Source: Spinellus fusiger
Lineage: Eukaryota; Mucoromycota; Mucoromycetes; Mucorales; Phycomycetaceae
Direction of reading: 5' to 3'
DNA: 64,000 nucleotides
Assembly: GCA_025094145.1 (NCBI GenBank)
Contig: JALLLS010000021.1
Coordinates: forward strand, 248,001-312,000
The position numbers and the translations under genes are program-made. The notes beneath the pieces were generated by a model. That model did not search any database. It had not been told where the DNA came from and saw only the letters and a list, made by a program, of their open reading frames with translations. Below are positions 1 to 61,613 of this stretch, in pieces. Every line of letters begins with the position of its first letter. Positions within the stretch are counted from its first letter, which is position 1.

Positions 1-1828
1 AAGTTTGCTGTAATTTGATTGCATGGTCTCAATCTCTTTTTTAGAACTAGTCAGTTGTTGTTCATAGGCTTGTTGTATTTTGTCTTTAAGAGTGTCCAGT
101 GCCACTTGACTAACAAATAAGATATATATATAATAATAAAAGTCAATAAGACTCATTTTCTCTCTCCAAGGTATTAGTATTGGTAGTTCATTTACTTTGA
201 AGCGGATCCTGTGATAGTGGTGGCTGCAGTATGGGAAAGGGTATCAAGCTCAGCCAAATAGTGACGACGCTGCTCACACAGGTCATCACACGCCTTCTCG
301 ATCTGTGTCTTTGTTTGATCCAGGTAGTTCATCTCTTCTTTTGATACAATCACTTCCTTCTCATTGGCTTTTGCTTTTGCTTGTTTGTGGAATGAAAGTT
401 CGTGTTGTAATCCAAGAATAACCTCTTCTGCATTTTTACGTGCTGCTACTTCAGCTGTAAATCCCTTTTTTATGAGATCAAACTCATGTAAGGCCTTGAG
501 ACTCGCTGACTATAGAAGAATCCAGGAATAAGGTCCATGACTTTTCTATCTCCATGTTTCCAAGAGACTTTACCTTGATAGCATTGAATTTTGTTTGTAC
601 ATCTTCAAGTTGTGCTTTGGTATTTCTTAGTTCTAGCTTCAATACATCTGTCTCTCTTGTTTTGTCGTCTCTTTTGATAGCACTGTTACTTCTACTCATG
701 CCAATGCCTTGTGGATGAAAGGGTGGACTGTGTGAGATATTTATAGACTGTGTATCTATTTTACTGTCTTCAATTCCAGAATCCAATGCCTTGCTCAGCA
801 TATTATTAAGATCGGCAAGCTCTTTGAAAGCTGCTGGAAGAAATAACACATGAATACACCACAAACAACTCCCTCCCCAGCCTACACTTACTGGATAAAG
901 AAGAGGCTTCTGTGTTCTCAAACACATTTGTATTTTCTGTCAGGATAATAGGTACAGGTGCTGTGTGTGTCCAGACATCTTTTCCTATCTGTGATGGATA
1001 GGGAGAGATAGAAACAGTAGCTTCGGGTTCAGACGAAGACTTCATTACACTGCCTTGACGATTTAGTCGTTCTTCTTTTCGTTTCTGTCGTAATTGTTTA
1101 CGCATCTCATGGCAAGAAGTACAAAAGATACCCTTTGTATGTTTGTATGTTTATATGTTTGTGTGTGTGTGTGTGTGAATAGCATACTCTTTTTATTTTA
1201 TTTTTGCGGGTTGATAGAGTGTAGTTGATGTGTTTACCTTGCTTGTTTGTGTAAAGACAAGGTCTTCAATGCGTGTATGGCACTGCACACACGCAAAGCA
1301 CTCTGCATGGTATGCTTCCTCCCCTATCAATGTATAGATGTATATTTATATATAAAAACAGGATAGCCATAAGGATCTTATGACTAACATTCCTTGTTGT
1401 AATACCCATTTTTATTCCTTACCTGTCATGATAGCCTCATCCTTAATTGTTTGGTGGCAGGCATGACATCTATAGGAGCAATCCTCGCAAATCGGACTTC
1501 CATCCCTCAGTAATAGGTGATTGCTATAGCATTCAACTAATTTATTGCATTTAGCACATCGAAAACTAGAGAATAAGTTGTAAAAGACGTTGTTGGGTGT
1601 AGGACAACACAAATACAGCGCATAGAACAATGGTATTAGCTTTGAAATATTCTCCAAAAGAGTGCCCAGTTCTTTTTTTCCTTCACAAACCCACCATTCG
1701 AAATGCCAAATGCCGTCTCCAAACTGCACTACTGAGCCATCTTCAATAGGCTGAAGACAGCCATTACAATGAGGATCTTCATATTCCTCTGAAGAATCAA
1801 AGGATGTTTCTTCGTAATAGGCGTCCAT
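1..1828 (-). CDS. LIM-domain coiled-coil protein, probable Rga-type RhoGAP (3' part outside window)
   Basis: Seven exons fit one frame: 1695-1828, 1423-1565, 1238-1323, 892-1132, 574-830, 196-509 and 1-109 (continuing off the edge), all with GT-AG introns of 61-129 nt. The 428 visible residues start MDAYYEE. Two LIM zinc-binding modules follow: the first opens with CNGC near residue 21 and continues through WHFECFRCAKC after splicing; the second runs from YRCHACHQ through AYHAECFACVQC to GIFCTSCHE. A Ser-rich linker and a long Lys/Glu-rich coiled coil follow (KLELRNTKAQLEDVQ, then HELSFHKQAKAKANEK). Two N-terminal LIM domains plus coiled coil is the layout of fungal Rga1/Rga2 RhoGAPs, whose GAP domain is C-terminal. 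That domain would lie outside this window, so the RhoGAP call is inference. A 5-residue longer start at 1843 is possible. Confidence 0.75.
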
Positions 1829-1844
1829 GAAGAATTCAAACAAA

Positions 1845-2330
1845 TAGAAAAATTCGATTGTTTGCTAGTATTTATTAGTAAAGGTGAAGGGAAAAGAAGA
1901 AGAAAAAAAAGAGAGAAACTTGCTGGCTTCATTTTCTTTCCTTCTTTAATTCCTTCTTTTGGAGAAAGGGTTTGGCTGTCGGGGATTGTACAGTGATTTT
2001 AGCTGTACAAGTGATATTGAATGGTTTATTTTGCTAAGCAAGATGATGGACAGTAAGTTGTTTTTCTTTTTCTTTTTTCCTTCTTTTTCTTTTTCTCCCT
2101 TTGCTTAGTATGGAAATAGTCATAGCCTCCCCCTTTTTCTTATGAAAACATTCCGGAGAGTTCTTAAGGGCTTTTTCTTTTCTTCTTTTTCTTTTTGATG
2201 AATTGCATTGAAGAGAACCAAGCTCATAGCAACATATGGCCCGGAGCATTTTTATAGAGGAGTATCAAATGGGATGTTATGGAAGCATCTCCTAGGCAAC
2301 CATAGAAATGTAGAACACAAATTGATCTGT
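1845..2330. other. CT/GA-rich intergenic segment upstream of the LIM gene
   Basis: Strongly pyrimidine/purine-biased stretches (around 1900-1950, 2055-2100 and 2165-2200) give only low-complexity Lys/Arg-rich translations. It is probably the promoter and 5' UTR region of the LIM gene. No distinct element is visible. Confidence 0.4.
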
Positions 2331-2333
2331 TTC

Positions 2334-2488
2334 CTATTCAACCCTAACACTAATGATTAAACAAGGACAGTGTTCAATCTGAGTGCTAATAAGATCTCTT
2401 CTTAATAGTAAGTCATCGAGCTCCTCCTGGTGTGTAAAGCAGACAAGTCCAAGTGGTTCTGTCCAAGTGTCATGGGGTTTTATACTCT
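2334..2488 (-). CDS. C-terminal exon of an unrecognised protein
   Basis: A likely terminal exon begins after the acceptor TTGAATTAG and ends at a TAG at 2334-2336. It encodes about 50 residues of ordinary composition, including PHDTWTEPLGLVCFTHQEEL and DDLLLRRDLISTQIEHC. This contrasts with the low-complexity Tyr/Ile-rich AT repeats just upstream (2500-2620), which read like an intron. Earlier exons probably lie at 2620-2900, but I could not join them with confidence. No family was recognised. It ends about 500 bp upstream of the LIM gene start on the same strand. Confidence 0.3.
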
Positions 2489-3077
2489 CTAATTCAATAA
2501 AACAGATGAAGAATATACAAAATATATAAATACGAAATATACAATAAATATACAATAAATATACAATAAATATATAAGAAATATATAAGAAATACATAGT
2601 ATACAAAATATATAATATACAAAGTAGACATTTATAAAGAATATTACTATTATAGGGGTGTGTTTTCTACTCTTTGTTTTCTGGTCTCTTGTTTTAGTAA
2701 GAAAAAGAAAAGTGCTTGGCATCCAGAATAGGCTCAGTACTGTCAGATACAGAACATTAGTCTGACAATAGGAGTGAGCAAATACACCAAAGAAAAAAAC
2801 CATCCGTTTTGGTTCTTTCCTTTTGTTCCTGTTACTAGTATAAAAAGATTAAACTACAGAAAGGGGCATCCGATGATAAATATACTACCGTCCACTTTAT
2901 CAAGACACGTTGTGTAGTTCTTCACTAGCCTTGAAGGAAAATAGCCTTTGCTGAGTGTATTTTAGCATTCTTCTACAAAAGTGGGTTAATAATTAGTCAT
3001 TAATCATTAATGAGTTTAACACTCCATTCAGTATCTTGGCTTTACAATTTATATTGGCTCAACATTTCCATCTTTGT

Positions 3078-3240
3078 ATCTATATCCATCTCTATATCTG
3101 TATCTGTATTTCTATCTGTATTTCTATCTGTATTTCTATCTGTATTTCTATCTGTATTTCTATCTGCATTTCTATCTGTATTTCTATCTGTATCTGTATC
3201 TGTATCTGTATCTGTATTTATGTCTGTATCTATAGCCATA
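3078..3240. repeat. TATCTG hexamer / TATTTCTATCTG 12-mer tandem array
   Basis: The hexamer TATCTG and its 12-bp higher-order unit TATTTCTATCTG repeat throughout this segment with few interruptions. The array is open in several frames on both strands, which produces spurious Ser/Val-, Ile/Cys- and Asp/Thr-rich reading frames that are not genes. Confidence 0.9.
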
Positions 3241-3674
3241 TCCATACACATTGATACAGTAGACATAGAATGGCTATGATATTTAACAAAAATAATAATA
3301 GATCTGTAAGAAAGAAATGTCTTTTACTGAGTGTCATCTCTGCTGGCCAGTGCTTTGAGAGGTCTCAATTGATACAAGAAAACTTGGATCTAGACTGTGC
3401 TTACTTGGAATTCCATGAGTTAACTTTTCCATAGAATACTAATAAAAGGGAGCAAGGTTACCTGGAGGATAATGAAAAGAGAAAGAAAGAGTACAGTTGT
3501 AATACAAGATGACGGTTCACTCGAGCTAATCTTGGTTTATTGTAACCATCTGTCAAATTAGTGTTTGATTGCTATAGTCAATTTATTATGCTTTACTATT
3601 CCCAAAATAATGCATAGAAAGAGTAATAATGCCATTTTGGTACAATTATTACTACACAGTGTAATCTATCTTGT

Positions 3675-3850
3675 ATAACAAGATCAAATAAAACATATTT
3701 CATCGCATTTTAGATCTTTTGTCTGTACTATGAGTTTCTATTAGTCATTTAGCTGAGGCTCCAACGATCACTGAGAAGGAAAAGGATGGGAATGAACTAG
3801 AAGGCTTGAATCTTTTCTTGGTTCTAGTAGTCTCTTGCTGACCATGTAGC
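3675..3850 (+). repeat. Dispersed repeat A, copy 1
   Basis: This segment aligns by eye with 4385-4545 (copy 2). Shared blocks in order are TTTTAGAT, TTAGTCATT, ACTGAGAAGGA versus ATTAGAGAAGGA, AGGCTTG and CTTTTCTTGGTTC. The spacing is nearly the same, so it is a diverged repeat and not chance. No protein or TIR was recognised. Confidence 0.6.
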
Positions 3851-4384
3851 ATTTCTAGTTCAGAGAAATAGGTAGAAGTATAATAAGAGAAAATCAATTG
3901 TTTATTTATAATAATAGGATTGAATACTACCAGCTATTATATGACAGTGTATTTAATTATTTACTTGAGTCCAAAAGGTATTGGGTTAGTCAACCTACGA
4001 TTAGGCATGTTCTTTTATTTATTTAATTAACTTCTTTGTCATTTTTATTTTACTTCTATTCTACTCTAAAATATCCACCTACTGTATTCAAATAGACTAC
4101 AGTTTATCATAGATACTTTATCCTAGACTCATTATTTTGTGGCTATTTTCCACGATTTGCCAACTGCTAGTGTCTCTTGTTTCTTTCTATAAATATATAA
4201 ATATATAATGATATGGTTTCTATGTAATTTGTGTAGTGTTCTATTCTTATTTCCATTTTATTACTCCATTATGATGCAGTGATCATCTTTATCCATTACT
4301 CCTCCCTTCTGCCACCCTTAGACATAATTTCATTTTCCCTTAATTCTCAGTATCTCCACTACTAGACATTATAATGTGTTTTGC

Positions 4385-4545
4385 ATGACAAGATACAAAA
4401 AGACACACTTCATTAATATTTTAGATAGTTTACCTGTAGCATGGATTTATGTTAGTCATTCAACTAAGACTCTACTAATAATTAGAGAAGGAAGAATAAA
4501 CCGGCAGGCTTGGACCTTTTCTTGGTTCAGAGAGAATAGATATAA
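4385..4545 (+). repeat. Dispersed repeat A, copy 2
   Basis: Diverged direct copy of 3675-3850, sharing TTTTAGAT, TTAGTCATTCAACTAAG, AGAGAAGGA, CAGGCTTGGA and CTTTTCTTGGTTC in the same order. A 68-codon open frame over it (4376-4582) has no recognisable content and is probably incidental. Confidence 0.6.
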
Positions 4546-4599
4546 ATACAATAATAAAGAAGAGATAAACAGCATTGAATAGTATTGAATAGTATCAAT

Positions 4600-5250
4600 T
4601 ACTATTTATCATGCGTTAATAGGGTTATGCCGTATGAAATGCAGGGAACCTTCTTCAATTTTATCATGTATGTCTACTCTATACTGATAAAGAGGGCTTT
4701 CCAAATAAATGCAAGTGACTGGAGTCATTGCTGTACATTAGTCTGAAGCAGTAGTGTTTTATTGTGCTTATCATGATATTTTGGTCATTGACTAAGCATG
4801 TATTTATAGTCCAACCTAACTGTCCTGCAGGGAAAAAAAAGTACGTAACTCATAGGATTATATGACTGATTCATATTATTCATTCTTTACAGTAAGCTGC
4901 CATTTCCTGGCCATATCACAATGTCTCTACTTTCTGTCTGGTATCTATCATTATTTGAACAGTTAGGATGACTTTTGCGCAAATGACTCTATCCACAACA
5001 GCCTGTATATCTATTTTGAAGAGGGTTCACTCAAATAATGCTATTGGGTATATAATTAGGATAAACATACTTGTTCAAGAAAGTGTGAATACAGCCACAC
5101 TCAATTGAGTTGAGTGCTTGTGAAAATAAATATCAGGACAAAATAGATAGGCCATGTTCAAAATTAAATAAAACATTTTACATTTGATCTATAAGCTCCA
5201 AACTTAAGCATATCAAGTCTCAATATCTTTAATTATAGAAAATAGAATAA
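4600..5250. other. AT-rich intergenic, nothing identified
   Basis: No convincing reading frame, repeat or RNA gene is visible between repeat A copy 2 and the degenerate Tc1-like element. Confidence 0.4.
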
Positions 5251-5261
5251 TAATACAGTTA

Positions 5262-6125
5262 ATATTTTGTATAGCCTTCTTTGGCATCAATGACATCCTG
5301 GCATCTGTCTGTCATACTCTGAACTCATCGTTGTGCAAGTTCAATATCAACTTTCTACATTGATAATAGATACTCTTTTCTTTCTTCAATTCATATTTCC
5401 AAGGCGTATCAGACATGTTCAATTGAGTTCAAGTCAGGCATTTGTGTAGGCTAGTACTCAAAGTCCCTAATCTGATGTCTCTTTTCACCATCTAGCATAG
5501 GCCCCAGTAGGACAGCTAGCACCCTTTTATTTTAACAGAAACTCGCTGTTTTCTTTCTGATACAATTCCATAAACCAAGAATGGAACTCACTAACTAAAA
5601 CAATGATGTATTCGTCTCGGTTTACAGTGCTATCAACAAAGACTAATGAGCCAAATCCATTAGCCTGAAAACAGCTCTAAAACATCACACCATCACCACC
5701 AAACTATATTGTTGAAATAATAGGGTTATAACTATATCGTTCTCTAACTATTTTAATGACACAGGCATCTCTATTGCTCTTTTTCATAATGTATGTTGAC
5801 TTATCAGACTAAATGATACCTCTCCACTGGTTACTTGTCCAACTGGCATGTTCCTTAGCCCAACAAAGCTGCTTTTCTTTGTGTGTTTTTCAGTTAAAGC
5901 TGGCTTGTGGTCTACAGAAAAGGATACATACTCTAACTGATTGAAATAGCTGATAAGGGTGTTTCTACATACATCCACCTCAAACTTGAACATTTGCAAT
6001 TTCAACTGATCGTATGAGGCAAATGGATCCTTTCTAATAATATCCTTCCAGGTGTCTTACATCCATCTCATCCACTTTTCTATGTTTTCAATAACTCTCT
6101 AAATGCAATAGTCATCTACACTCTT
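5262..6125 (-). mobile_element. Degenerate Tc1/mariner-like transposase
   Basis: On the minus strand, broken by many stops and frameshifts, short blocks occur in the order of a Tc1 transposase. There is a helix-turn-helix-like region at 5784-6005 (KLQMFKFEVDVCRNTLISYF, then GLRNMPVGQ). A DDE-domain core follows, resembling 'G-LVF-DST-N-DEYI' near 5600-5660. Next is PTQMPDLNSIEHVWYALE near 5400-5440, where the family has its third catalytic acidic residue. The tail is MTDRCQDVIDAKEGYTKY near 5265-5320. Flanking TIRs were not identified. This is a dead copy; similar tails occur at 39.6 kb and 46.8 kb. Confidence 0.7.
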
Positions 6126-6407
6126 TGATGTTTCTAACACTACTTTAAACTATAGGCTTTTTCCTCATAATCACAGCCAACTCTAATCCAGCCATAAACA
6201 GACAATAAATACCCTATCATCTTCCATATTTTGTCTTGTCCAATTCCCCACAAATGTAATATTCTGAATATCCATCTGAAATACTGTGTTGGCCTAACAC
6301 TATTGAGAAAGAAAAGAGCTTCATACAATAGAGATAGTATCTCTTTTTCCCTTTTATCACTATGCTTCCCAACAAATATTAAATATATAATGCAAAGAGT
6401 TCTATCT

Positions 6408-8606
6408 CTAGGAAGACTCAGTCATTTGAGCAGCAATAGAAAGCAGGAGTTGATCATAACCATACTGTGCCATCAGCTGTAATCCAATGGGATACCCATC
6501 CACTGCTGATGTACCAAAGGGTACAGTAATAGCAGGCAAACCCGACAGACTAGCAGGCACCGTCATCACATCATTCACATAAGCATCCACTGCCTTTGTA
6601 CCAGCCACTTTGGACTGTCTATCATAGTCACTCATCTTGGGTGCTGATGAAATGGCACTGGGAGTGAGAAGAATATGTGCTTGTCCCTCTGTCTTGGTTG
6701 GAGTGTCCTGCAATACATTTGGCTGACAAAAGACTCTATCAAAATCCTCTTGAATACGTCTGCGTGCCTTTTGTGCAGGAAGAAACAGAGTATCATAGGT
6801 TCTATTTCAACATAAGCCCATCGATTCTTAAATAGAAAAGGTAGTTCTCCCTATGCATTACCCTGATATCAGAACATGCGTTCCTAATAAGATACGCTTT
6901 TGGACTTCTGCACCAAATCCCTCTGTTCTGGTGTCTGCATAAAGCATCGACGGATCGGTTGGAGCCACCCTGCTTTGATGGCCTTTATTATCACAGAGAA
7001 GAATGAGTCACTTTTTATTCTATGCAAAAAAAAAGCACCTTACCAAAGCGAATCCCATCATAGCGTGCTAAATTCGAACTTGCTTCTGCCAATGCGATTG
7101 TGTAGTAAGCAGGAAGGGCCAGGGGTGTATGTGGCAAAGTCACTGACATAATGGTGGCTCCTTTGCTTTGGAGACAACGAATGCCACGACGCCAGATAGC
7201 AAGGACATCTTCAGATAGAGGGTCCACATAGTATTCTTGAGGAATCCCCACCACCAGGCCAGTCAAATCCCCCCCTTTCCACCGAGATGCCAGATGCATA
7301 TCATGTTCATCCACCCGGGTTCTGAGATCCACTGGCATAGAAGTAGAATCTTTGCTGTCATGGTGAGAGATCACATCTAATCCAAGCATGCAAGGTATCC
7401 TAGTCAGTCAGCTCGTGTTCATGTGTCTGATGCCTTGGTAGGATGCTTCCTTTCTATTTACCATACACTCTTGTTGTATCAGCCACTGTGCGTGCTAGTA
7501 TCCCCACAGTGTCGAGTGAGTTGGCATACGCTACTAATCCATAACGAGAACAGCGTCCATACGATGGCTTGAACCCCACCACACCACAGTAAGAAGCAGG
7601 CAGACGCACAGATCCGCCTGTGTCTGATCCCAGGGCACTAGTCAACAAGGCATATCAACACACACGCACAAACACACACACACCTCTTCCAATATATCAT
7701 TTCTCTCTCTCTCTCTAAGAATACATTACACTGTACACATGTCCATGGCCACAGCAGCAGCACTTCCACCTGAACTTCCACCTGCCACTCTCTTTTGATC
7801 TTCTTCTACTACTTTGCCTTGACATGTGTAGGGATGTTGAACAGGCCCATGATGACTGTACATTGTAGCCGATCTATCCACGCCCATCCCAATTCCAACC
7901 GTCATTGTTATGTTTACTCGTGGTGGACGAATGGAGGACTTGCTTACCCCATGCCAAATTCATCCATGTTGGTTTTGCCTAGAACCAAGGCCCCTGCTTT
8001 TTGTAGTTGATCCACTACGGTTGCGTCGTAAGGAGAAATAAAGTCTAAGGACCCCATAACAGATGGAATACGTTGATATACATTGACACATGGATACAGT
8101 CTACATGGGATCTTGTTTCTCCCCATGGCAGGTGGATCTTACTTTGAAGCATAGTAGAAGAACAAGTGGTGGACAGTGTGCGTGTGCAAAAGTTATCTTT
8201 AATCCCCATAGAAACACCTTCCAAGGGTCCTGCCATTCTGTCGCTCCATGTCAGTTTCCATTCTTGTCATGCTATGTTTTTTTTTATGTTTTTTTATGTT
8301 TTTTATTATTATTAGAAGCAAGTTACCTTTGTTGACTACGTACAGTGGAAGCTGAAGATTGTGTCTCTAATACGTGTCTCTCTTGGACAGTAACAAAGGC
8401 ATTGAGACGAGGGTTGTGGCTATGGATAGTATCGAGACACTGATGCCATGTTTTTGTGGCCACTGTGCGTCTGTTCTTTTGATGGGTTGTAAAAGTTAGT
8501 TGTTTTTTTCATTCTTTTTCTTTTTGAGTTTCTATAAAGAGGAGTGTTCTTATGCAAGTACCTGTGGCATACCCCATGGACAGATGCGTGCTGACCGAGT
8601 GAACAT
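6408..8606 (-). CDS. HER2: Glutamyl-tRNA(Gln) amidotransferase subunit A, mitochondrial
   Basis: GatA/Her2/QRSL1 is the amidase subunit of the mitochondrial GatCAB-type complex that converts Glu-tRNA(Gln) to Gln-tRNA(Gln). Nine exons fit: 8562-8606, 8327-8475, 8143-8237, 7948-8044, 7739-7873, 7467-7637, 7044-7399, 6862-6934 and 6408-6801. They give 504 residues, the usual size. The amidase-signature Ser-cisSer-Lys triad is visible: Lys in [10 protein letters not shown], cis-Ser in [11 protein letters not shown] and the nucleophile Ser in [16 protein letters not shown]. The start [15 protein letters not shown], on a 45-nt exon, is basic and Ser/Arg-rich like a mitochondrial presequence, which supports this start. 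The C-terminal QLMAQYG region is family-typical. Introns are 60-109 nt. The donor of the exon at 7739 (GTGTAC) is weak, so that junction is the least certain. Confidence 0.9.
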
Positions 8607-8725
8607 GGTAATTCAAAAAAAAGAACAAGAACAAGAACAAAAAGAGGAAGAAAGGGAACAGGAGGAAAGTGTGACCTGTAAAAAAGGCTATCACACACTT
8701 CCCTCAAAGTGCCGTATTCTGTATT

Positions 8726-9185
8726 TTACTGTAAAAGGAATCTCAATCCTGTTGACTTGATAATAGCACACAAGTCACCTTTATTTCTACTTGCACAGAA
8801 TCCTCTGTAAGGCATGGTCAATACACACACACACACACACACATACATACTATACTATACTATACTATACTATACTATCTATCCATATACACTGTGTCTA
8901 CACTCCATGGGCTGTAGATCCATAAGAACTCTGAGGAAGAAGAAAACACTCTGTATTTCTTTTTCTTTTTTTTTCATTGCAAAGACTCTCTCATGGACTC
9001 CCATCATCACAGCCAGAGTCTCTTTGTGACAATGGAGAAAGAAAAAGAGTCTTACCAAAGGGGGACACAGTGAAGAGACAGTCACTGTGGAATGACGTAG
9101 ACAGCCAGAGAGGGGTTGGGTTGTCTACCAACACAAACATCTGTATGAGTGCAAATAGAATCCCAAGAGTGACTTGCCCTGGCAC
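8726..9185 (-). CDS. Small three-exon gene with hydrophobic N-terminus, unknown function
   Basis: Exons 9056-9185, 8891-8930 and 8804-8726 join in frame through good splice sites (GTAAGA...TTCCTCAG and GTATAT...CCTTACAG). They give an 82-residue protein ending at TAA. The start MPGQVTLGILFALIQMFVLV is hydrophobic and could be a signal peptide or membrane anchor. The remainder has several Cys and Trp residues (FLWIYSPWSVDTVGFCAS). No family was recognised. It ends 120 bp upstream of the GatA start, on the same strand. The second intron holds CA and TATAC microsatellites. The call rests on splice and frame consistency alone. Confidence 0.42.
8822..8880. repeat. CA and TATAC microsatellites
   Basis: About ten CA units are followed by about seven ACTAT units. 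They fall inside the predicted second intron of the small gene at 8726-9185. Confidence 0.9.
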
Positions 9186-9365
9186 TGAATAAACACTGGT
9201 GAATCACTCTTTCTCCATCTTCCCCCTTGTAAAGGTTAGCTTACTGAAGAGAGAGAGAGAAGGGGAGAGAGAAAAGCAACACAATTCGTATTCTCTTGAT
9301 GATAATGTTCAAAGGAACTCACCTTATATTTCTATTATGACATATCACCATGGACAGCTCCTCCC

Positions 9366-9663
9366 ATGTCGACTTTTGGACGTACATTGAAGAACATTAT
9401 TAAAGTGGGTCCTGCCAATGCCCTTAAACAAATGAACACCATTGGTGATATCAAGTGGGGTCTTTTGGTGGGCACTGATGTGAACGGCAACAAGTACTTT
9501 GAGAGCCAGGATGAGGTTTCAGGCAAGCGCATGGAGTCGTGCTGAGAAGAGTTGTTTATTCATAATGTGTATGTGGACAGGCCGTGAGCGATGGGTGGAG
9601 TATGCCAGTGACCAGCCTGATTCTGGAGACATTGATCCTCTATGGTAAGCCTTTTCTTTTCTT

Positions 9664-9694
<31 letters not shown>

Positions 9695-9917
9695 GTAGAC
9701 AGCAAGGATTAGATAACTTATGCATTGGATACAATAAAGGTCTGGTTGGATGACTCGTAAGTTTGAGGAGCCTCCTACTGAGTGGACTTTGGAAACCAAG
9801 AAGTTCTGGGGTGAGCCTACACCCAACTTCACAGGCACCTACAAGGCATTCAAAACCTACAATACAACTGTCCCCAAGTTTACTGCTTGGGAGCCTACTG
9901 TCAAGGAGAGAGTATAA
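9366..9917 (+). CDS. NADH:ubiquinone oxidoreductase subunit NDUFA12 (B17.2)
   Basis: This is an accessory subunit of mitochondrial complex I, peripheral arm, matrix side. Exons 9366-9522, 9581-9644 and 9740-9917 give 132 residues. Family landmarks are IGDIKWGLLVGTDVNGNKYF, GRERWVEYASDQ and WMTRKFEEPPTEW, with the C-terminal TYKAFKTYNTTVPKFTAW. The start ATG at 9366 gives MSTFGRTLKNIIKVG. Intron 1 appears to use a GC donor: TTTCAG is followed by GCAAGC, and the acceptor is GTGGACAG at 9573-9580. No GT donor nearby keeps the conserved SGRERW junction. Intron 2 carries a GTT microsatellite (9664-9693). It is transcribed divergently from the small gene at 8726-9185, about 180 bp away. Confidence 0.92.
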
Positions 9918-10052
9918 ACAAAAAGAAAAAGAATAAAGAAAAAGAGCAGCTGTGTAGTATAGCATGTCAGTGTTTATTTTCTTTTTCTTTTTTTTCTTCT
10001 TTTTTTTCTTATGTTTATTTATTATTGCTCTGATTTCCTAGATAAGCAGACT

Positions 10053-10091
10053 GACTGAGTGAAGAGAAGAGAAGAGAAGAGAAGAGAAGAG
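10053..10091. repeat. GAAGA pentanucleotide microsatellite
   Basis: GAAGA units repeat between the convergent NDUFA12 and Rab7 3' ends. Confidence 0.8.
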
Positions 10092-10143
10092 GTGTAGGGT
10101 GTATGTATTGTTTAGAAGAGAAAGGATGTTATTTTTTTTGTTT

Positions 10144-11270
<1,127 letters not shown>

Positions 11271-11279
11271 GAAGGAAAA

Positions 11280-11810
11280 GAAAATAAAGGGGAGTTGGTT
11301 TCAGGAAAAGGAAAAAAAAAAAGTTTCTTTCTTTCTTTCTTTTTTTTTTCTCCCCAGTGAGACAGCACATGATCTTGGAATGTGCCACAGACATCAGCAC
11401 CACGCACGGAAAAAAGAGAGTGAGAGTGAGTGAGAGAGACACCATTGGCCCTATCTGCACCACAATGGAAGGAAGGGCAGTGGGTGGTAATATGACGTAA
11501 GAAGTCTGAGTCTGGTGGGGTGGGTCTGTGAGTGAACACCATTGGCATGTGCTTGTGTAAGAGGAAAGAAGAGTGAGAAAGTACTAATCTGTACAGGTGA
11601 CTGTAATAGGATGGATAGACTACAAATAAGGAAGTGTGTCTATTAGTAACAAAAAAAATAGCAACCATAGCAATTATGGCAACCATAGCAACAACACAAC
11701 AGTAACAGTAGCAAAAGTGACAAGAAAGGCAACCCTCTTTTCATTCTCTTTTTCTATTAGCTGGAACTATTGCCAGACACTCTTCTAGCGTCAAGGCAAG
11801 TGAACAGTTG
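11280..11810. other. Intergenic region upstream of Rab7
   Basis: A GA/CT-rich stretch (11300-11430) and AT/CAA-rich DNA (11640-11720) separate the Rab7 start from the 3' end of the LRR gene. Open frames here are low-complexity Phe/Ser/Leu strings. No gene was identified. Confidence 0.5.
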
Positions 11811-45630: not shown

Positions 45631-45640
45631 TCATCGTTGA

Positions 45641-45984
45641 TAATAATAATAGTAATAATAATAATAGTAATAATAATAATAATAATAATAGTAATAATAA
45701 TAATAATAATAGTAATAATAGTAATAGTAATAATAATAATAGTAATAATAGTAATAATAATAATAGTAATAATAATAATAATAATAGTAATAGTAATAAT
45801 AGTAATAATAATAATAGTAATAATAGTAATAATAGTAATAATAATAATAGTAATAATAGTAATAATAATAATAGTAATAATAGTAATAATAATAATAGTA
45901 ATAATAGTAATAGTAATAATAGTAATAATAATAATAGTAATAATAATAATAATAATAATAATAGTAATAATAGTAATAATAGTA

Positions 45985-46019
<35 letters not shown>

Positions 46020-46051
46020 AATAATGATAATAATAATAATAACAATAATAA
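45641..46051. repeat. 410-bp imperfect TAA/TAG trinucleotide array
   Basis: TAA and TAG triplets alternate for about 137 units with perfect triplet phase, ending with a few GAT and AAC variants. The complementary strand reads as poly-Leu and the other frame as Ile/Val, giving long but spurious open frames. The mix of two triplets may form higher-order motifs such as AATAATAGTAATAAT. Confidence 0.95.
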
Positions 46052-51436: not shown

Positions 51437-53680
51437 ATGGGACAAGCAGTTCCTTTTATGGAAAGAGAAGAGAGGAAAAAGAGGCACATTTTATTTTCCA
51501 ACGTGGCTGTCTTTGTCTTTGTAATTTATTAGCCAATCATAGAGCGATTAGGAGAGAGAGTGGGACAGAAAAAATCCATCCCACCCAGTTGCATTGATGA
51601 TTGAAGGGAGAGAAAGAAAGAAAGAGAGAGTAGACAATGTGACGTGTTTTTCCATCACCCTACACACCAGGAGATTTTTCTGACCTTTAAGCGGTTATTT
51701 TTCCTTCCTTTTACGTTCAACTTCTTGCCTTTTATGGAAATGTGTTTAAAATCAAAAGGTTTGCAAGTATCTAAATAATTGTTTCCTTTTGTGGATACCT
51801 CAATATCAAATTGTATTATCAGTAAAATATATTGTTTATTGTAATAATATAGCTAATAATACTGTAGCTAATAACATACTATTACTATAGCTACTGCTGT
51901 TCTATGCGTATTCCTTCATAGCAATAGAATCCACAACCTAAAAGCCTTGTGCTTTATCCTTGGGAGATAGATAACTATGCTCAGGAGTATACCCTAGACA
52001 GCCTAGACACCTTAGACAGTATAGAAGGAAGAAGACCACCTGAGACTGACTTGAGAAAGAGTCTTAACTCATCTAATAACAGAAGAGTGTATTAGTAATA
52101 ATTCAATCAAGAGAGATAGTATGCTTACCTTGTACTTAATACTTGTCTTGAGAATAATGAGTCATATATCATCTATTAGAAGAGTCAGTGCTGTCTTGTG
52201 GATTAAACTAAGATCAAGCCCAGATGAAGACACTGCTTACCTTTTCATCACTAGAATAGTCCTTGGTAGTGTCTATCACCTCCTTCTATTGTTTCTCTTT
52301 GTTAATAATAGCACAATACCTTGCTCAGTTATGCCCATCTTGACGAGTACTTAATTGTTATACTGTGGGCTTAAGGATAGCACATGTTAAACATTAAATG
52401 CAGTGATTGAGTTGCAATGTCAGGTTTACTTCTTCCTTTTATCCAACTTTATAGTGTTTAATTGCACAGTTCATAGTCAATGCCAAGACAGACAGACAGT
52501 GAGAAGGTTGTTTTCAAACACATTAGCCAACCAAAGAAATAACATAATTTCATTGTTCATGTATTTCTTTATATATCCCAAAAATATTATGTTGCTATGA
52601 AACAAGACACACAAGACCTCTTAAAGCTGGTTACTCATACGGAGATTGACAGAAAAGAGAAGGGTGTGAGCTGACAGAAGGCAAACTGGTAGTTGTAATA
52701 ATAATGGCACCCTGTGGGAATACAGAAAGAAAACAAGTCGAGAATAAGAAACAGTCAGTTACTCAAGTCCTTAAAGCCTGTCTTGTTTATACTCTAGGAA
52801 GCTGTTTGGATCAAAGTCTATTTTATTAAAGATGTAGACAATTACACTTTTTATATTAGTTTGCTATTTCTTCTTTGACTATGAATTTGTCTAATTTGCT
52901 ATTCTCAAGTAATAGCTATGGTTTTCATAGAACATTCAAGAAGACTGGGAAGGGTAACTGTCTTGTCCTATAATGTGTATAATCTTGGTCCTGTATTTCA
53001 AGGCCATAGAATTCAATAAAGTGGTTTTATTGTAAATAAAGTTTATCTCTTCCCTGAAACATACATAGGACAAGAGGAGGGAGTCCATCTCTGAATTTAC
53101 TGAGATGTTATTATCATATAACTTTGATCCTTATAGCTTGATGAGATATATATGAAAGTAGCCTCAAGATATATACTATGTAACTTTGTAAAATATATCT
53201 TTTATTCTGCAATAAAGGTGCACTGTGGTTATCAACAAGACCACTAGAGAGATGAATCTGTAGTTGTTTGGTCTCTAGCAGGGACAACGAAATAGAGTAT
53301 TAGTACAAAGGCTGGTCTAGGGAAATCAAAGAGGGTACATGAACAGGAACACAACACACGACTTGATCACAACTGGTAACTAGGCAACTGTTCTTTAAGC
53401 ACTTCTTTTCTTTCTAGAATGTTGTTGTAGTCTGCATTACTTTGGTGATTCTGATTAAGCAAATGACTTGTGAAATTTAGTTTTGTTCTCTTCTGTTCGG
53501 ATATAAATATCTGCTAATTACACTGTCTGTTGTTCTTCATAACTTCTATCCTTTTTATTTTGTTTGCCTTTGTCTGGCATATAAACCAACAGCTGTGATC
53601 TGGTAAGTGTTTGTGTATGTTTATTATGTCTGACATGTTAGTCAGTTTCTATTTTATATTCTTTTACTATAATAAGCCCA

Positions 53681-54210
53681 GTGAATCCGTTACAAAGGCA
53701 AAGGCAAAAAGAAGGTGCCAGTGCAAGGGTAATACGACATCCACATAGAGAGTACATTAATACATGTCGAACTAATTGTTTTTACTATTATTTTATTATT
53801 AAAAAGGTGTATTGGCACCTAAGAATATTGGAGTATAATCCTACCAGGCTGCTAGTCGTTGCCTATGGCACAGGAATAAAGGTAAAAGATGCTGCCAAAT
53901 TTAAAAGCCATTGTGTTGGTTTGCCAAGAATTTTATATCAATCATTAAAAAAAGACAAAAGGGTGGAGATCTTCTTATGGTTGATGTTGATAAATTTCGA
54001 AAATCGAGAGTAAACATGATTGACCTCTCACCTAATATGAAAAGCTCTTCTAACAGTTACTCTTATTTTTGTTCTCAAGATCTGCCACACTTGTAGCACA
54101 CATAACCTCACCGAAGTATTCATAAATTTCAACAGTATTCACGCTTACCAAGGTTGCGGAATTGTTTAGAACAGAGATGTGAATGCATCAAAGGGTATCT
54201 ATACAGTCAC
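53681..54210 (+). pseudogene. Fanzor (eukaryotic TnpB-like, OrfB family) C-terminal remnant, copy A
   Basis: Pieces in three frames follow the order of a TnpB/Fanzor C-terminus. TRLLVVAYGTGIKVKDAAKF then VGLPRILYQSLKK are in frame one. After a shift at the A-run near 53948, KRQKGGDLLMVDVDKFRKSR occupies the RuvC-II position, where the family reads roughly 'DEF.TS'; the expected catalytic Glu is Lys here. After a further shift and a stop, CGIV then NRDVNASKGIYT at 54155-54200 matches the zinc-ribbon end and the RuvC-III Asp motif. The N-terminal half with the first RuvC Asp was not found. Homology is by motif recall, not search; the protein is dead. Confidence 0.7.
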
Positions 54211-54230
54211 ATAAGAATATATATTCTTAT
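54211..54230. repeat. Perfect 20-bp palindrome in element tail (mirrored at 55965-55984)
   Basis: ATAAGAATATATATTCTTAT is self-complementary and directly follows the Fanzor remnant. A second small hairpin, CCAC-ATCGAAA-GTGG at 54251-54265, follows. This tail lies where guide (omega) RNA is encoded in related elements. Confidence 0.8.
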
Positions 54231-54432
54231 TCATATTATATTATATATCGCCACATCGAAAGTGGTTTCCTTTGGGATTCAGATATTTACAGGTAAATCT
54301 ACATAATAGTCTTTATTTAAGAACTAACATGAATACATAATTTATTTTTGCTCCTTTTCAAATCTATGTCATTTCTTAAACAATTGTAGTTCGACTATTT
54401 CTTTTTACATCCTAAAGATCTCCTGGTGTGTA

Positions 54433-54590
54433 AAAAGAGACACGGCTACAGCACCAAGTGAGAATAGCTATTATTTATTATTTATTATTTATTCTCCCTT
54501 ATCATCTATTCTCCCTTAATATTATTTATTATTTATTATTATTCTATCAATCAGCGCCTCTTTTTTCTTGTCTTCTTCACACCCCAATGA
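54433..54590. other. Spacer between copy A and the sandwiched gene
   Basis: AT-rich, with TTATTATTTATT-type repeats (54470-54545). It probably holds the 3' UTR of the minus-strand gene. A GATCA run (54868-54892) lies in that gene's second intron. Confidence 0.5.
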
Positions 54591-55616
54591 TCAGGTGGGA
54601 TTGTAAGACACATAGCGTCTTTGTCCTTTACTGTGTGTGCCTGGATCTGATACTGGATCTGTTTCCCACAATCGCTGTCGACGTCCAGAAGTATACCGAG
54701 TCAACGGTTGGCTGTGTCTTTGAGCAGGTGCCTCTCTTATCCAATCAGGAAGCGGTCTATGGCGTTGAACATAGTACTCCCGCAGGATTCGTGACACATG
54801 ACTTTCACCCTCACAGTCAGAGCCATCCGAAGCTATTCCCAGCCCCATAGCAACAAGGCAGAAACAAAACAGATCAGATCAGATCAGATCAGTTTCCATG
54901 GACAACACATTCCTCTGGGTATCTTCTCCTCTTTCGATTGGACACACATGAGACTCACCTGCTGCCACGTGCTCCTCCACCTCTTCTTCAATCAGTGACT
55001 GTGTAGCATTCAACAGTCGCTGCCATAATTTGTTGCTAGGGGTTTTGTTATCTTGGAGCAATGCCTTGGCATCTTTATCAGCCAATGAAAAAGGACATGT
55101 CAATCTACAGCCATCTTCCCTCACTGCACAACAGATAGACTGTCTCTCACACTCACTCCTTTTCTACTCACTCTTTTCCTGTAGCTGTTTCCACTTGTCG
55201 TTCTGCCGTACTTTCCCCCATAGTGACTTCCCATGTATTGGTGGTAGGGCGTTCATAGTGGTGGTGTTCATCATACTGGAGGTGGCTTCTTCGGGAAGAT
55301 GGACGGCATATTGTTCATAGTAAGAGCTCTCTTGTTCTTCAGGTGTCTTTTGGAAACGAGCCCATTTATTGCTGTTGCTGCTGCTGCTGCTACTACTATC
55401 TATGCTGTGGGTGGTGGGAGAGGCATGAGGTGGTGGACTTGGCACAGCGTCACTCGAGGACAAGGAAACAACAGGTAATGGCAGCAGTGGGGGTAATGAC
55501 GGCTGAATCCGTGTTTTGCAGTGATGGCGTGCTGGGTACATGCCCACATCCTGTCCGCAGTCCTTGCAGAGAACAATGAGCTTGGACATGCGATAGTCTA
55601 CAGTCTGAGCTCCCAT
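54591..55616 (-). CDS. Three-exon gene between the inverted elements; Mso1-like C-terminus
   Basis: Exons 55172-55616, 54959-55072 and 54591-54832 join in frame (GTGAGT...GATAAAG and GTGAGT...GGAATAG) to give 266 residues ending at TGA. The N-terminus has LIVLCKDCGQDVGMYPARHH followed by Cys, a small possible zinc knuckle. A Pro/Ser-rich linker follows, then SLWGKVRQNDKWKQLQEK, SNKLWQRLLNATQSLIEEEV and ESHVSRILREYYVQRHRPLP leading to DWI. The last block recalls fungal Mso1-type Sec1-binding proteins of exocytosis. That call is tentative; the gene model itself is well supported by frame closure. Only 146 bp separate its ATG from copy B and 158 bp its stop from copy A. An alternative start is at 55589. 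Confidence 0.75.
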
Positions 55617-55762
55617 AGTAGATAGGATTCTAATTGATATTGGATCGTAAAGAAGAACAAAGACATTTTTAAGGCTCCGTTCTGCTTTAAAGGAGGGAAA
55701 TAGTGACATTAAATGTTCTTTTTTTTTTCTTTCTATTTTCATCTGTTGAGTCATGGGAAATC

Positions 55763-58534
55763 TACACACCAGGAGATCTTTAGGATATAAAAAGAAATAG
55801 TCGAACTACAATTGTTTAAGAAATGACATAGATTTGAAAAGGAGCAAAAATAAATTATGTATTCATGTTAGTTCTTAAATAAAGACTATTATGTAGATTT
55901 ACCTGTAAATATCTGAATCCCAAAGGAAACCACTTTCGATGTGGCGATATATAATATAATATGAATAAGAATATATATTCTTATGTGACTGTATAGATAC
56001 CCTTTGATGCATTCACATCTCTGTTCTAAACAATTCCGCAACCTTGGTAAGCGTGAATACTGTTGAAATTTATGAATACTTCGGTGAGGTTATGTGTGCT
56101 ACAAGTGTGGCAGATCTTGAGAACAAAAATAAGAGTAACTGTTAGAAGAGCTTTTCATATTAGGTGAGAGGTCAATCATGTTTACTCTCGATTTTCGAAA
56201 TTTATCAACATCAACCATAAGAAGATCTCCACCCTTTTGTCTTTTTTTAATGATTGATATAAAATTCTTGGCAAACCAACACAATGGCTTTTAAATTTGG
56301 CAGCATCTTTTACCTTTATTCCTGTGCCATAGGCAACGACTAGCAGCCTGGTAGGATTATACTCCAATATTCTTAGGTGCCAATACACCTTTTTAATAAT
56401 AAAATAATAGTAAAAACAATTAGTTCGACATGTATTAATGTACTCTCTATGTGGATGTCGTATTACCCTTGCACTGGCACCTTCTTTTTGCCTTTGCCTT
56501 TGTAACGGATTCACTGGGCTTATTATAGTAAAAGAATATAAAATAGAAACTGACTAACATGTCAGACATAATAAACATACACAAACACTTACCAGATCAC
56601 AGCTGTTGGTTTATATGCCAGACAAAGGCAAACAAAATAAAAAGGATAGAAGTTATGAAGAACAACAGACAGTGTAATTAGCAGATATTTATATCCGAAC
56701 AGAAGAGAACAAAACTAAATTTCACAAGTCATTTGCTTAATCAGAATCACCAAAGTAATGCAGACTACAACAACATTCTAGAAAGAAAAGAAGTGCTTAA
56801 AGAACAGTTGCCTAGTTACCAGTTGTGATCAAGTCGTGTGTTGTGTTCCTGTTCATGTACCCTCTTTGATTTCCCTAGACCAGCCTTTGTACTAATACTC
56901 TATTTCGTTGTCCCTGCTAGAGACCAAACAACTACAGATTCATCTCTCTAGTGGTCTTGTTGATAACCACAGTGCACCTTTATTGCAGAATAAAAGATAT
57001 ATTTTACAAAGTTACATAGTATATATCTTGAGGCTACTTTCATATATATCTCATCAAGCTATAAGGATCAAAGTTATATGATAATAACATCTCAGTAAAT
57101 TCAGAGATGGACTCCCTCCTCTTGTCCTATGTATGTTTCAGGGAAGAGATAAACTTTATTTACAATAAAACCACTTTATTGAATTCTATGGCCTTGAAAT
57201 ACAGGACCAAGATTATACACATTATAGGACAAGACAGTTACCCTTCCCAGTCTTCTTGAATGTTCTATGAAAACCATAGCTATTACTTGAGAATAGCAAA
57301 TTAGACAAATTCATAGTCAAAGAAGAAATAGCAAACTAATATAAAAAGTGTAATTGTCTACATCTTTAATAAAATAGACTTTGATCCAAACAGCTTCCTA
57401 GAGTATAAACAAGACAGGCTTTAAGGACTTGAGTAACTGACTGTTTCTTATTCTCGACTTGTTTTCTTTCTGTATTCCCACAGGGTGCCATTATTATTAC
57501 AACTACCAGTTTGCCTTCTGTCAGCTCACACCCTTCTCTTTTCTGTCAATCTCCGTATGAGTAACCAGCTTTAAGAGGTCTTGTGTGTCTTGTTTCATAG
57601 CAACATAATATTTTTGGGATATATAAAGAAATACATGAACAATGAAATTATGTTATTTCTTTGGTTGGCTAATGTGTTTGAAAACAACCTTCTCACTGTC
57701 TGTCTGTCTTGGCATTGACTATGAACTGTGCAATTAAACACTATAAAGTTGGATAAAAGGAAGAAGTAAACCTGACATTGCAACTCAATCACTGCATTTA
57801 ATGTTTAACATGTGCTATCCTTAAGCCCACAGTATAACAATTAAGTACTCGTCAAGATGGGCATAACTGAGCAAGGTATTGTGCTATTATTAACAAAGAG
57901 AAACAATAGAAGGAGGTGATAGACACTACCAAGGACTATTCTAGTGATGAAAAGGTAAGCAGTGTCTTCATCTGGGCTTGATCTTAGTTTAATCCACAAG
58001 ACAGCACTGACTCTTCTAATAGATGATATATGACTCATTATTCTCAAGACAAGTATTAAGTACAAGGTAAGCATACTATCTCTCTTGATTGAATTATTAC
58101 TAATACACTCTTCTGTTATTAGATGAGTTAAGACTCTTTCTCAAGTCAGTCTCAGGTGGTCTTCTTCCTTCTATACTGTCTAAGGTGTCTAGGCTGTCTA
58201 GGGTATACTCCTGAGCATAGTTATCTATCTCCCAAGGATAAAGCACAAGGCTTTTAGGTTGTGGATTCTATTGCTATGAAGGAATACGCATAGAACAGCA
58301 GTAGCTATAGTAATAGTATGTTATTAGCTACAGTATTATTAGCTATATTATTACAATAAACAATATATTTTACTGATAATACAATTTGATATTGAGGTAT
58401 CCACAAAAGGAAACAATTATTTAGATACTTGCAAACCTTTTGATTTTAAACACATTTCCATAAAAGGCAAGAAGTTGAACGTAAAAGGAAGGAAAAATAA
58501 CCGCTTAAAGGTCAGAAAAATCTCCTGGTGTGTA
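55763..58534 (-). mobile_element. Fanzor-carrying TIR transposon, copy B (2772 bp, inverted)
   Basis: Same length as copy A and in exact reverse orientation, with TACACACCAGGAGAT at 55763-55777 and its complement at 58520-58534, TA-flanked. The only difference I noticed by eye is one base near the inner end (CATCC in copy A, TATCC in copy B). Identical frames appear at 56182-56514, 57595-57792 and 57841-58074. Near identity means a very recent duplication or ongoing conversion between the arms. Confidence 0.88.
55985..56514 (-). pseudogene. Fanzor C-terminal remnant, copy B
   Basis: Mirror image of 53681-54210 with the same frameshifts, the same Lys at the RuvC-II position (MVDVDKF) and the same in-frame stop before NRDVNAS. 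The protein was already broken before the two copies separated. Confidence 0.7.
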
Positions 58535-58719
58535 GAACCGTGTCGTATAAACTACCTACAGATTCACCTAATGAATGAAAAAGTAGGTAAAAAAAGTCCT
58601 ATTTATGGAAAATAGAGGATGCGGCTGTTGAAATGGAATAAAAAAGAAAGAATAGAGGTAATATATAAATATATAAAAATAAAATGAAAATAAAGGACAT
58701 CTACACCCTACATATTTCT

Positions 58720-61613
58720 TTATAGCACACCATTGACAATCTCAAAGGCTTGTCTGTACACTTCAAGGCGTTCTTTGACTTTGGCTCTTTCCAGTGTCAT
58801 ACCTTCGTCTTCTTTCAACAGATCAGGGAAGAGTTCCTTTTTGTAGAGCAAAGTGACCAGTCGATTCTGCACTGTCTCACGGGAATGGTTGACCAAAAGA
58901 TGCATCACAGACTTAGGTACCATGTCCTGCACATTCTTACGCACAATGTTAAAGTAGTTTGTAATCAGTGTGCGAATCAATTGCACCTCTAATTCCTCTC
59001 TCTCCATCACAGGCACACCATCCCCATGAATAGACACTTGCTCCAGTTTACGCTCTAATTCACTCTCCATAATAGAATTCACCGACATGGGGGGAACATA
59101 GAGACTGTTTTCGAGTGCATGTTGGGATCCAAGAACAGGTCGATCACTCTTGTTGGCACCTCCAAAGAAAGAATTCAGGAAGAAGTCCTTGGGTGGTTTT
59201 TGGCTATCATAGCGAGGGTCTTCTTGTTCTTTAAGGCTGGAGAGAGAGTCTTTGCGCTGGAATTTCTTTTTGTCTGCCATGGCCTTCTTTCTCTTTTTGC
59301 TTTCATTCTCGACATTGAACATGGCACCTGCTGCTCCAAGGAAATCGGGGTGATTTGTGTTGATATAGGCCTTTTCAATAGCAATTAGGCTTTCTACATA
59401 GGTGGAGGTAGGCGTCAATCGTTCCAGGAGGAGTTCAGAGACAACTTCAGTAAGACGTGCCTGGAGTCTAGGATAGCGCATCAATTCCTTCAAAAGTAAC
59501 AAATATATATATATATATATATATAAGACAGTGAGTGGATTGGCCAGTCTGCCTATATACTGATGGGTAGATTGCTTTAGATGTTCCTTACCTTGTCTTC
59601 TGAAGCATGGCATATCTTCAACAGTTCTTCATACACAAGCTCAACACAACGAAGACTGGGAGTCTCTAGTAATTTGATCTGTGGTTTGACAAGCAGATCA
59701 AAGGCAATCTCTGGCACAAACAAAGAAGGTCGTGGTCCTGTGGAGTTACGAATGGCTGTACGAATGTCGTTGTTGGTGAGATGAGAGCAGGGACGAATGG
59801 CATCCAGGGCATTCCCAAACACATGATTAAAGATATAGTAAATCCTTGCTCCTCCACAGCTACAAAAAAAAAGAGAGTACATCAGTACAAGGAGAACAGT
59901 GCATCTAAGGACTTACAGCTCTTTGGTAGAGAGTTCATAGCAAGTACCATCAATGGCTGCTACAAAGGCATTGGCAAATCGAGTCAACATGTGCAACACT
60001 AAAGCACCCTACACCATAGAAAATTCCATTCATAGGTCATGGCGTTTGTTAATATTATGACTTGAGGAGCAGACACTACATCTCATTGGACTTGCATGAT
60101 GTTCAGATTCGGTGGTTAACGAAGGCTCACCCAACTGTGCCAAGTCTTGCTGTGTTTGGCTCATCAATGAACTTAGCCTTGACCTTAACTCTGGGAGTTT
60201 CTCTTTAATGTGGGCCAGAAGAAGCTACACAGGGAATTAAACAAGGTGAAAGGAAAACCCACCGTCTGTTATTGGATCCATAGACATAAAATATATATAG
60301 AAAAGAGACATCTCCACTTACTGTGTTGAGGAGTTTACCAAGGTATTGCGTGCCACACCGTTCAGCAATACTACGGTAGGCAATGTGCTGTTGGAAAAAG
60401 AGATTCTCAGAGGCAATGGCATTGGTCATGGGCTTATTTGTCAAGATATCTTGCTGGCTACGGTTAACTACACCCACAAACCCTAACTTGAGTGGATAGG
60501 AGCGTCCTGTCAATATGTCCAGTGCTGTGGTGCCAGCATCCATAAGATCCAATTTGGTCAATACGCCTACAGTGCGTTTACCTGGATAGATACATTACAA
60601 GTCAGTGGGAGTGGAGTGGACCATAAAGGGGATGGATTTGATACTGTTTCTCATATGCTCTCTCCCTTACCCTCGGAATCCACCTGTCTCGCCATCTTCA
60701 GACTGTCAGAATTCACCAGATCACTGTTGGCGGGCGTCACTGCCAATATAATACTAATAAAACCATCCACCATTCAGACATACTTTTGTAAGACAACCAC
60801 ACAAAAGCATAGACTCTATTCTCTACTAGAAAAGAAAGAAAGAAAGAAGCTGCTCCGTACCTATTGGGCTTTGAGATATAATCCATCATAAGATCCCTGA
60901 TTTGTTTCTCAATGTCGGACGGTTGATCTCCTATTCATATCCACAATATCCAAAGTATCCACAATATCCACAGCATCCACAGCATCCACAATATCCACAA
61001 CATATATACATATCCAAATCCAAATCCAATCATCAACACCACAATAGATACTCCATACCCATACAAAAGAATAATAAAGAATAAAAATAATAAACTTACC
61101 CATTGGAATCTATCACAACATCTACTTTATTGCCTTATTTGACAAAAATAAAAGGAACACTCTCCACAATGCACAGGAAAACCTTACCTTTGTCAATCCA
61201 GGCAAATCCACCAAGGTCAATGTCAACACTCGAGGAGAATAGATACGCAAATGAATTGGCACACGAGAAATGCCCTTATTTTCACCTGCGACTCTTGCCG
61301 TTTCTCTCTCAATCTCACTCTTAATCTCTTGAAAATCATAGAACTTTGTCTCTTGCGTATGAAGAAACTCGCCATAGTCTGCTGCATCAGCACGGTTCAG
61401 GGTGATCAACTGCAGGATAAGAGGACGACGCGTGACAATGCCACTGCCACGGGGGAGAAAGTCGCGTTGGACAAAGGTTTCGAGCACAGAGGACTTTCCA
61501 GACGACTGGGACCCCACCACAACAATCTGGGGCAAGTCGAGAGTACCGTGGTCGCTTATGGAGGCAGTGACTGTTTGCAGTTTATTGGTGAGTTCTATGA
61601 GGTGGTTGGCCAT
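58720..61613 (-). CDS. DNM1: Dynamin-related GTPase Dnm1 (mitochondrial/peroxisomal fission)
   Basis: Nine exons (61188-61613, 61100-61109, 60861-60930, 60671-60753, 60322-60581, 60096-60224, 59917-60008, 59592-59859 and 58720-59487) give 701 residues. G1 is [15 protein letters not shown]2 includes [13 protein letters not shown]3 is LVDLPGLTK and G4 is [10 protein letters not shown]. The Dnm1/DRP1-type signature is [17 protein letters not shown], with the stalk block [21 protein letters not shown] hydrophilic insert ([20 protein letters not shown]) and the GED at the end ([39 protein letters not shown]) place it with Dnm1 and not Vps1. Exon 2 is only 10 nt. Intron 6 (60009-60095) appears to start GCAAGT. 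Confidence 0.94.
59498..59524. repeat. TA dinucleotide repeat in Dnm1 intron 8
   Basis: About a dozen TA units lie within the last intron (59488-59591). Confidence 0.9.
60939..61001. repeat. ATCCACAAT-type 9-bp tandem repeat in Dnm1 intron 2
   Basis: Seven variants of ATCCACAAT/ATCCACAGC lie in the intron between the 10-nt exon and exon 3. Confidence 0.9.

Follow-up and report, generated by a model that had tools for sequence, protein, structure and literature searches.

Probable local gene conversion between two near-identical, inverted and decayed transposons that flank an intact gene in Spinellus fusiger

How do two decayed copies of a transposon that face each other across a gene come to differ in a single base? 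This question is raised by a locus of Spinellus fusiger (Mucorales, Phycomycetaceae), a mould growing on mushrooms, in which an Mso1-like gene is flanked by two mutually inverted copies of one element, A and B. The locus belongs to a stretch of 64,000 bp, hereafter the window (contig C112, positions 248001-312000), of an assembly of 38.08 Mb in 197 contigs; positions given below without a contig or locus are those of the window. The inverted pair is real: A and B are decayed transposons, the host gene that they enclose is intact, and their near identity is best explained by local gene conversion. The reading that they are separate insertions homogenised by such conversion is given a rough probability of 0.55, somewhat better than even.

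An ungapped alignment of A with the reverse complement of B covered all 2772 of 2772 columns with one mismatch, and a repeat search returned a single inverted pair with arms at 51660-54432 and 55763-58535 and a spacer of 1330 bp. Both analyses confirm the original prediction of mirrored copies of equal length (2772 bp) with identical, TA-flanked ends of 15 bp, and the one difference that it had noted by eye is indeed the only one. Each copy starts with TACACACCAGGAGAT and ends with ATCTCCTGGTGTGTA. Beyond the element ends the flanks of A and B are different: similarity stops at the 15-bp repeats, with TA outermost. A duplication of a haplotype or contig was ruled out as the origin of B, given these unlike flanks and a centre that occurs once. 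At base 54408, the position of the mismatch, T was found in 66 of 68 aligned right ends of the family and one other C occurs in locus L065, so that the change would most simply be a mutation in A. Elsewhere in the genome, the best match to A among the 40 scored of 1804 candidates reached 94% over 706-2772 (contig C124), and the best full-length match reached 93% and lies on the same contig (C112:243109-245950); none of the 40 was an unlinked match of more than 94% over more than 140 bp. The likeness of A and B is beyond chance.

Both copies carry the C-terminal remnant of a Fanzor/TnpB gene, and it is in this sense only that they are Fanzor-bearing, as had been predicted; a working gene is present in neither. 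The remnant in A has a frame break near 53945-53962, a probable intron at about 54010-54079 (GT...AG) that is predicted from the sequence, a Tyr codon at 54146-54148 where relatives encode a zinc-ligand Cys, and an in-frame TAG at 54167-54169 inside the final motif. With the frame break, the Cys-to-Tyr change and the stop, no intact catalytic Fanzor frame was found in A or B. Long reading frames are missing from both copies, and since stop-free stretches in A reach 123 amino acids at most, A is without a transposase of its own. The open piece of A alone did not match PF07282 (zinc-ribbon, TNB), which was found in at least 150 places in relatives, namely all 150 that were scored of 457 candidates. 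A spliced piece of the relative L021 reached 49.8 bits with this model (cut-off 26.3) and gave weak matches in the PDB, to TnpB-like chains among others (best E 5e-5). A protein search with the Fanzor piece returned four candidates and no homologue at E 0.001, the reading frame of L046 had no meaningful match, and no full-length Fanzor protein was found among the loci read. As both copies carry identical lesions, their identity is younger than the decay.

The gene between the copies reads as intact, with three exons and GT/AG splice sites, and its product matches a deposited protein of S. fusiger of 297 amino acids (BDF14DRAFT_1793701). The complete three-exon gene that had been proposed at 54591-55616 differs from the deposited model at its 5' limit, the deposited start being at 55709. 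Only 53 bp separate this start from the end of copy B upstream. The match to PF14475 in exon 3 scored 30.2 bits (cut-off 29.1), the protein had 53 protein matches, mostly from Mucoromycota and some from Glomeromycotina and Zoopagomycota (judged by names), and the centre, a low-complexity stretch excepted, occurs once in the assembly. The gene is an intact, single-copy, Mso1-like host gene that is conserved among fungi, mostly Mucoromycota.

The terminal 15-mer, with at most one mismatch, had 693 + 685 occurrences genome-wide versus 1 + 0 for a reversed control, which would correspond to roughly 690 elements, provided that all ends are paired. Where the alignment reached within 2 bp of the end, TA was present in 65 of 67 cases on the right and in 43 of 43 on the left. 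TA at both ends and inverted repeats are features of TA-target (Tc1/mariner-like) cut-and-paste elements. The genome also has many DDE_3 transposase genes. The family is an old one of probably non-autonomous, TA-flanked DNA transposons with inverted repeats. A recent burst of the family is unsupported, and the missing unlinked near-identical relative of A among the candidates scored speaks against recent long-range jumping.

Evidence for exchange between copies came from other neighbours of the same family. The tract analysis comprised 65 family loci with 66 same-contig locus pairs, the contigs C104 and C131 (see below) being treated as one locus. An exact tract of 400 bp or longer was shared by 6 of the 66 same-contig pairs versus 2 of 2013 others; the figures were 5 of 65 same-contig versus 2 of 1705 unlinked pairs in a reduced set, from which five loci were left out that had been fetched because they formed close pairs. 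The borders of the exact tracts in neighbouring copies are sharp, in a background of ~88%. On C112, near identity between two copies that end at 45.95 kb (+) and 60.86 kb (-) extends inward from the right end over ~1.0 kb, beyond which they are ~88% alike; the corresponding values are ~1.2 kb and ~88% for a pair on C141, and ~0.4 kb and ~87% for the pair 484-/546+ on C176. Within these three pairs a C/T polymorphism of the family, 14 bp from the right end, still differs, and the inner sequence is near-identical. On C183 two structurally different elements have a right part of 672 bp exactly in common, with no further shared stretch at E 1e-20. Locus L003, whose right end lies 56 kb from that of A, has 2228 bp in common with A/B in four exact pieces, counted over both copies.

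A dependence on distance was also seen when pairs tied in PF07282 score and frame were counted among the 150 rows scored, such ties being a proxy only for identity. Ties occurred in 15 of 23 pairs less than 20 kb apart (C172 and C167 alone give nine of them, the remainder being 6 of 14), in 5 of 36 pairs at 20-70 kb, in 0 of 101 same-contig pairs more than 70 kb apart and in 29 of 11010 unlinked pairs. Partial tracts and distance dependence are marks of exchange between neighbours.

We infer that the likeness of A and B arose by such exchange. Two members of the old family would have inserted separately on either side of the Mso1-like gene, in opposite orientation by chance. As the inverted repeats are only 1.33 kb apart, they could pair and exchange sequence, and repeated gene conversion would have homogenised the whole 2772 bp. 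Occasional crossing-over would be expected to flip the gene without losing it, while crossing-over between copies in direct orientation would delete the DNA between them. Such a loss could explain why all six family pairs less than 6 kb apart are inverted. The original prediction had offered very recent origin or gene conversion; the pair of options is supported, and conversion is favoured because in sister pairs the exact tracts are partial and sharply bordered.

The six close pairs (6/6 inverted) are A/B, one each on C131, C167 and C183, and two on C172, where ~4.6 pairs below 6 kb would be expected by chance for 172 family loci if evenly spread. A/B and the C131, C167 and C183 pairs are at least 99.8% alike in the shared part; of the two C172 pairs, one was read and is 96.2% alike overall with an exact tract of 465 bp, whereas the assessment of the second used its tied score alone. 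These close inverted pairs, all near-identical or tied, fit a homogenisation of chance neighbours together with a loss of direct ones, although the numbers are small. On C167 (L068:603-1855 and 3368-4620) the inverted arms of 1253 bp have one mismatch and include 20 bp outside the outer ends, for which simple insertion gives no explanation. Within C172:96007-111312 an inverted pair of the Fanzor family recurs 13,270 bp further on with equal spacing, which represents either a segmental duplication or an assembly repeat.

A comparable pair bears on the flipping of the centre, which had been suggested for the gene between A and B. At C131:146710-150151 two complete family members of 1024 bp are inverted and 100% identical over 1026 bp, around a centre of 1394 bp. 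C104 is a small contig (11.8 kb) redundant with C131, and in its alignment (1-11797) with C131:146710-158861 the C131 centre is reversed relative to the right flank, which matches over ~8 kb with 100% identity as reported. The first bases of C104 already belong to an arm, where nine base differences are clustered, and a single junction is visible; the flipped centre may possibly be a misjoin. The suggestion thus finds a counterpart at C131/C104, with one junction, and none at A/B, whose centre occurs in the assembly once and in no flipped form. Near identity would be due to conversion, and occasional flipping is plausible, if unproven, at A/B.

Several observations weigh against conversion. 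A and B are alike end to end and have no conversion border, and a fresh duplication would look equal. Only A/B, C131 and C183 are clear element pairs among the six below 6 kb, since the C167 pair has exact ends outside only, with an inexact end at one inner border, and the anatomy on C172 is ambiguous. Near-exact tracts were also found between unlinked copies (C30/C169, 1008 bp; C17/C23, 537 bp), and the unlinked C131 and C173 share a tract of 437 bp at 99%. On C157 the right ends of an inverted pair with a distance of ~18 kb agree to only 88%, and a pair on C176 in direct orientation has 1659 exact bp in common. Finally, inverted-only ties among DDE_3 genes and a lack of ties among retroelements, both described below, hint at a process specific to DNA transposons. 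Orientation itself is weak as proof in the Fanzor family: of the exact tracts reaching 400 bp, 8 were inverted, 1 direct and 1 ambiguous (p 0.04), yet four of the eight (C131, C167, C172, C183) had been fetched as close inverted pairs, and without them the ratio is 4:1.

The comparison with other elements used 150 of 174 DDE_3 matches (1544 candidates) and 150 of 151 RVT_1 matches (477 candidates). DDE_3 pairs less than 20 kb apart were tied in 12 of 23 inverted versus 0 of 8 direct cases (Fisher p 0.012), so that all 12 ties were inverted; they lie on C150, C110, C24, C119, C187, C6, C132, C124, C160, C176, C35 and C94. Near-identical DNA transposons in inverted orientation thus seem to be in excess in the S. 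fusiger genome. Retroelement (RVT_1) pairs were tied in 0 of 34 cases below 20 kb, a control of little power because unlinked retroelement pairs were tied in 0 of 11020 cases too. On C6 (316-5145, L072) inverted arms of 1539 bp that contain DDE_3 pieces are 100% identical around a centre of 1752 bp, and no inverted ends were found on the inside. On this pair, the one that was read, the DDE_3 pairs were ruled out as the same phenomenon as A/B, as the anatomy differs.

The main rival to conversion, which we hold to be possible but less likely, is aberrant or local transposition, in which a transposase acting in trans joins the ends of sister copies (hybrid-element insertion) or moves one copy by 1.3 kb; the outcome would be a pair of identical copies in opposite orientation, with the segment between them either inverted or as before. 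It would account directly for full-length identity with precise ends, and according to a study of Galileo, hybrid-element insertion leaves identical opposite copies and ectopic recombination chimeric ones (PMC2775673). The abundant DDE_3 genes and their exclusively inverted ties (12/12) also agree with it. It does not, however, fit the lack of an unlinked full-length near-identical copy of either A or the C131 element among the candidates scored, and of the linked pairs read at more than 5 kb none is identical along the whole part read. It further predicts that close pairs at ordinary family divergence also occur, yet with ~4.6 pairs below 6 kb expected by chance all six that were seen are near-identical or tied.

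An assembly artefact, in which the assembler copied or averaged the second arm or its sequence, is improbable: redundant contigs such as C104 do occur, but A and B have unlike flanks on both the outer and the inner side, loci L001-L025 are without N, one base tells the arms apart around a single-copy centre, and the linkage dependence of the exact tracts is unlike random mis-assignment of reads. The composite transposon of the original prediction, a 6.9-kb unit moving by its outer ends with the host gene, could in principle be mobilised, as these ends are intact inverted repeats beside TA, and, the TA target being palindromic, the ends cannot show such a movement, but it is unsupported and was rejected as very improbable, because no second site of the unit (arms and centre) was found in the one assembly, the centre is a single-copy gene with conserved fungal relatives and A has no transposase. 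Cruciform extrusion, which the original prediction had also suggested, is judged unlikely at A/B, with arms of 2.77 kb around a loop of 1.33 kb.

A role of Fanzor in transposon survival, through break repair, has been proposed. If homogenisation by conversion holds, near-identical transposon copies need not signal recent jumping, since neighbouring copies can renew the sequence of old insertions. A family of several hundred copies with distance-dependent exact tracts would make traces of break repair testable by resequencing. Our search of the literature on Fanzor with gene conversion found nothing on genomic traces of such repair, neither term appearing in the titles or abstracts of the papers returned, and a search for a S. 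fusiger genome paper found none. More speculatively, and in our view doubtfully, breaks made by transposons (by excision, or by the Fanzor nuclease of an intact copy) would be repaired from the nearest copy, local orientation-dependent neighbourhoods would rewrite each other and flip genes, and A/B would be a live switch of gene orientation. Copy B, so close to the deposited start and in a possibly invertible unit, could alter the promoter of the Mso1-like gene.

The elements resemble Fanzor1 elements with TA-flanked inverted repeats, of which Spu-1 of Spizellomyces and families in Mucor, Rhizopus and Phycomyces have been described (PMC3627910), as have ghost elements of Spu-1 (PMC10432273). 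Common features are TA ends, inverted repeats, a length of 2-3 kb, copies without an intact gene and, in relatives of A/B, a Fanzor C-terminus with a C4 zinc finger and an RD motif. In contrast to these elements, the C-terminal part of the Spinellus gene seems to be interrupted by an intron and the gene is broken in both A and B, the repeats measure 15 bp instead of 33 bp, and the copy number is higher than that given there for Spu-1 (17 full-length elements; 42 Fanzor and 134 ghost loci; PMC3627910, PMC10432273). Spinellus does not appear in the available part of the Fanzor species table (PMC3627910). In the Galileo (P superfamily) inversions of Drosophila buzzatii, likewise, two inverted DNA-transposon copies bracket host DNA, copies are chimeric and recombination flips the segment; however, 7-bp target duplications prove exchange there, which the 2-bp TA of A/B cannot, and the A/B segment is 1.3 kb with one gene and not a chromosomal inversion (PMC2775673). 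Gene-converting palindromes are known from mammalian sex chromosomes, among others (PMC3308322). Such palindromes also have near-identical inverted arms around a unique spacer, with identity attributed to arm-to-arm conversion, but the arms of A/B are transposon insertions and not duplicated host genes.

Table 1. Features of the inverted pair, the enclosed gene and its neighbour (window positions)
Feature	Position	Strand	Remark
Copy A	51661..54432	+	2772 bp, complete member of the TACACACC family with broken Fanzor remnant
A left terminal inverted repeat	51661..51675	+	TA at start
Fanzor/TnpB C-terminal remnant in A	53642..54225	+	near right end of element; relatives match PF07282
Sole A/B difference	54408..54408	+	C in A, T in B
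A right terminal inverted repeat	54418..54432	-	TA at end
Exon 3 and stop, Mso1-like gene	54591..54832	-	contains Mso1 Sec1-binding motif, PF14475
Exon 2, Mso1-like gene	54959..55072	-	acceptor per deposited model; alternative acceptor possible near 55123
Exon 1, Mso1-like gene	55172..55709	-	deposited start 55709, alternative 55616
Copy B	55763..58534	-	inverted relative to A, 2771/2772 identical
B right terminal inverted repeat	55763..55777	+	right end of element, toward gene
Fanzor/TnpB remnant in B	55970..56553	-	lesions identical to A; no A/B difference in this stretch
B left terminal inverted repeat	58520..58534	-	outer end
Dynamin-family GTPase, C-terminal part (Dynamin_M, GED)	58720..59613	-	neighbouring host gene, ends 185 bp from B

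Elsewhere in the window, two tandem arrays were observed, one of ATA/ATAATA type at 45640-46051 (412 bp, ~90% regular) and one at 3073-3234 with a TATCTGTATTTC-like unit of 12/24/36 bp.

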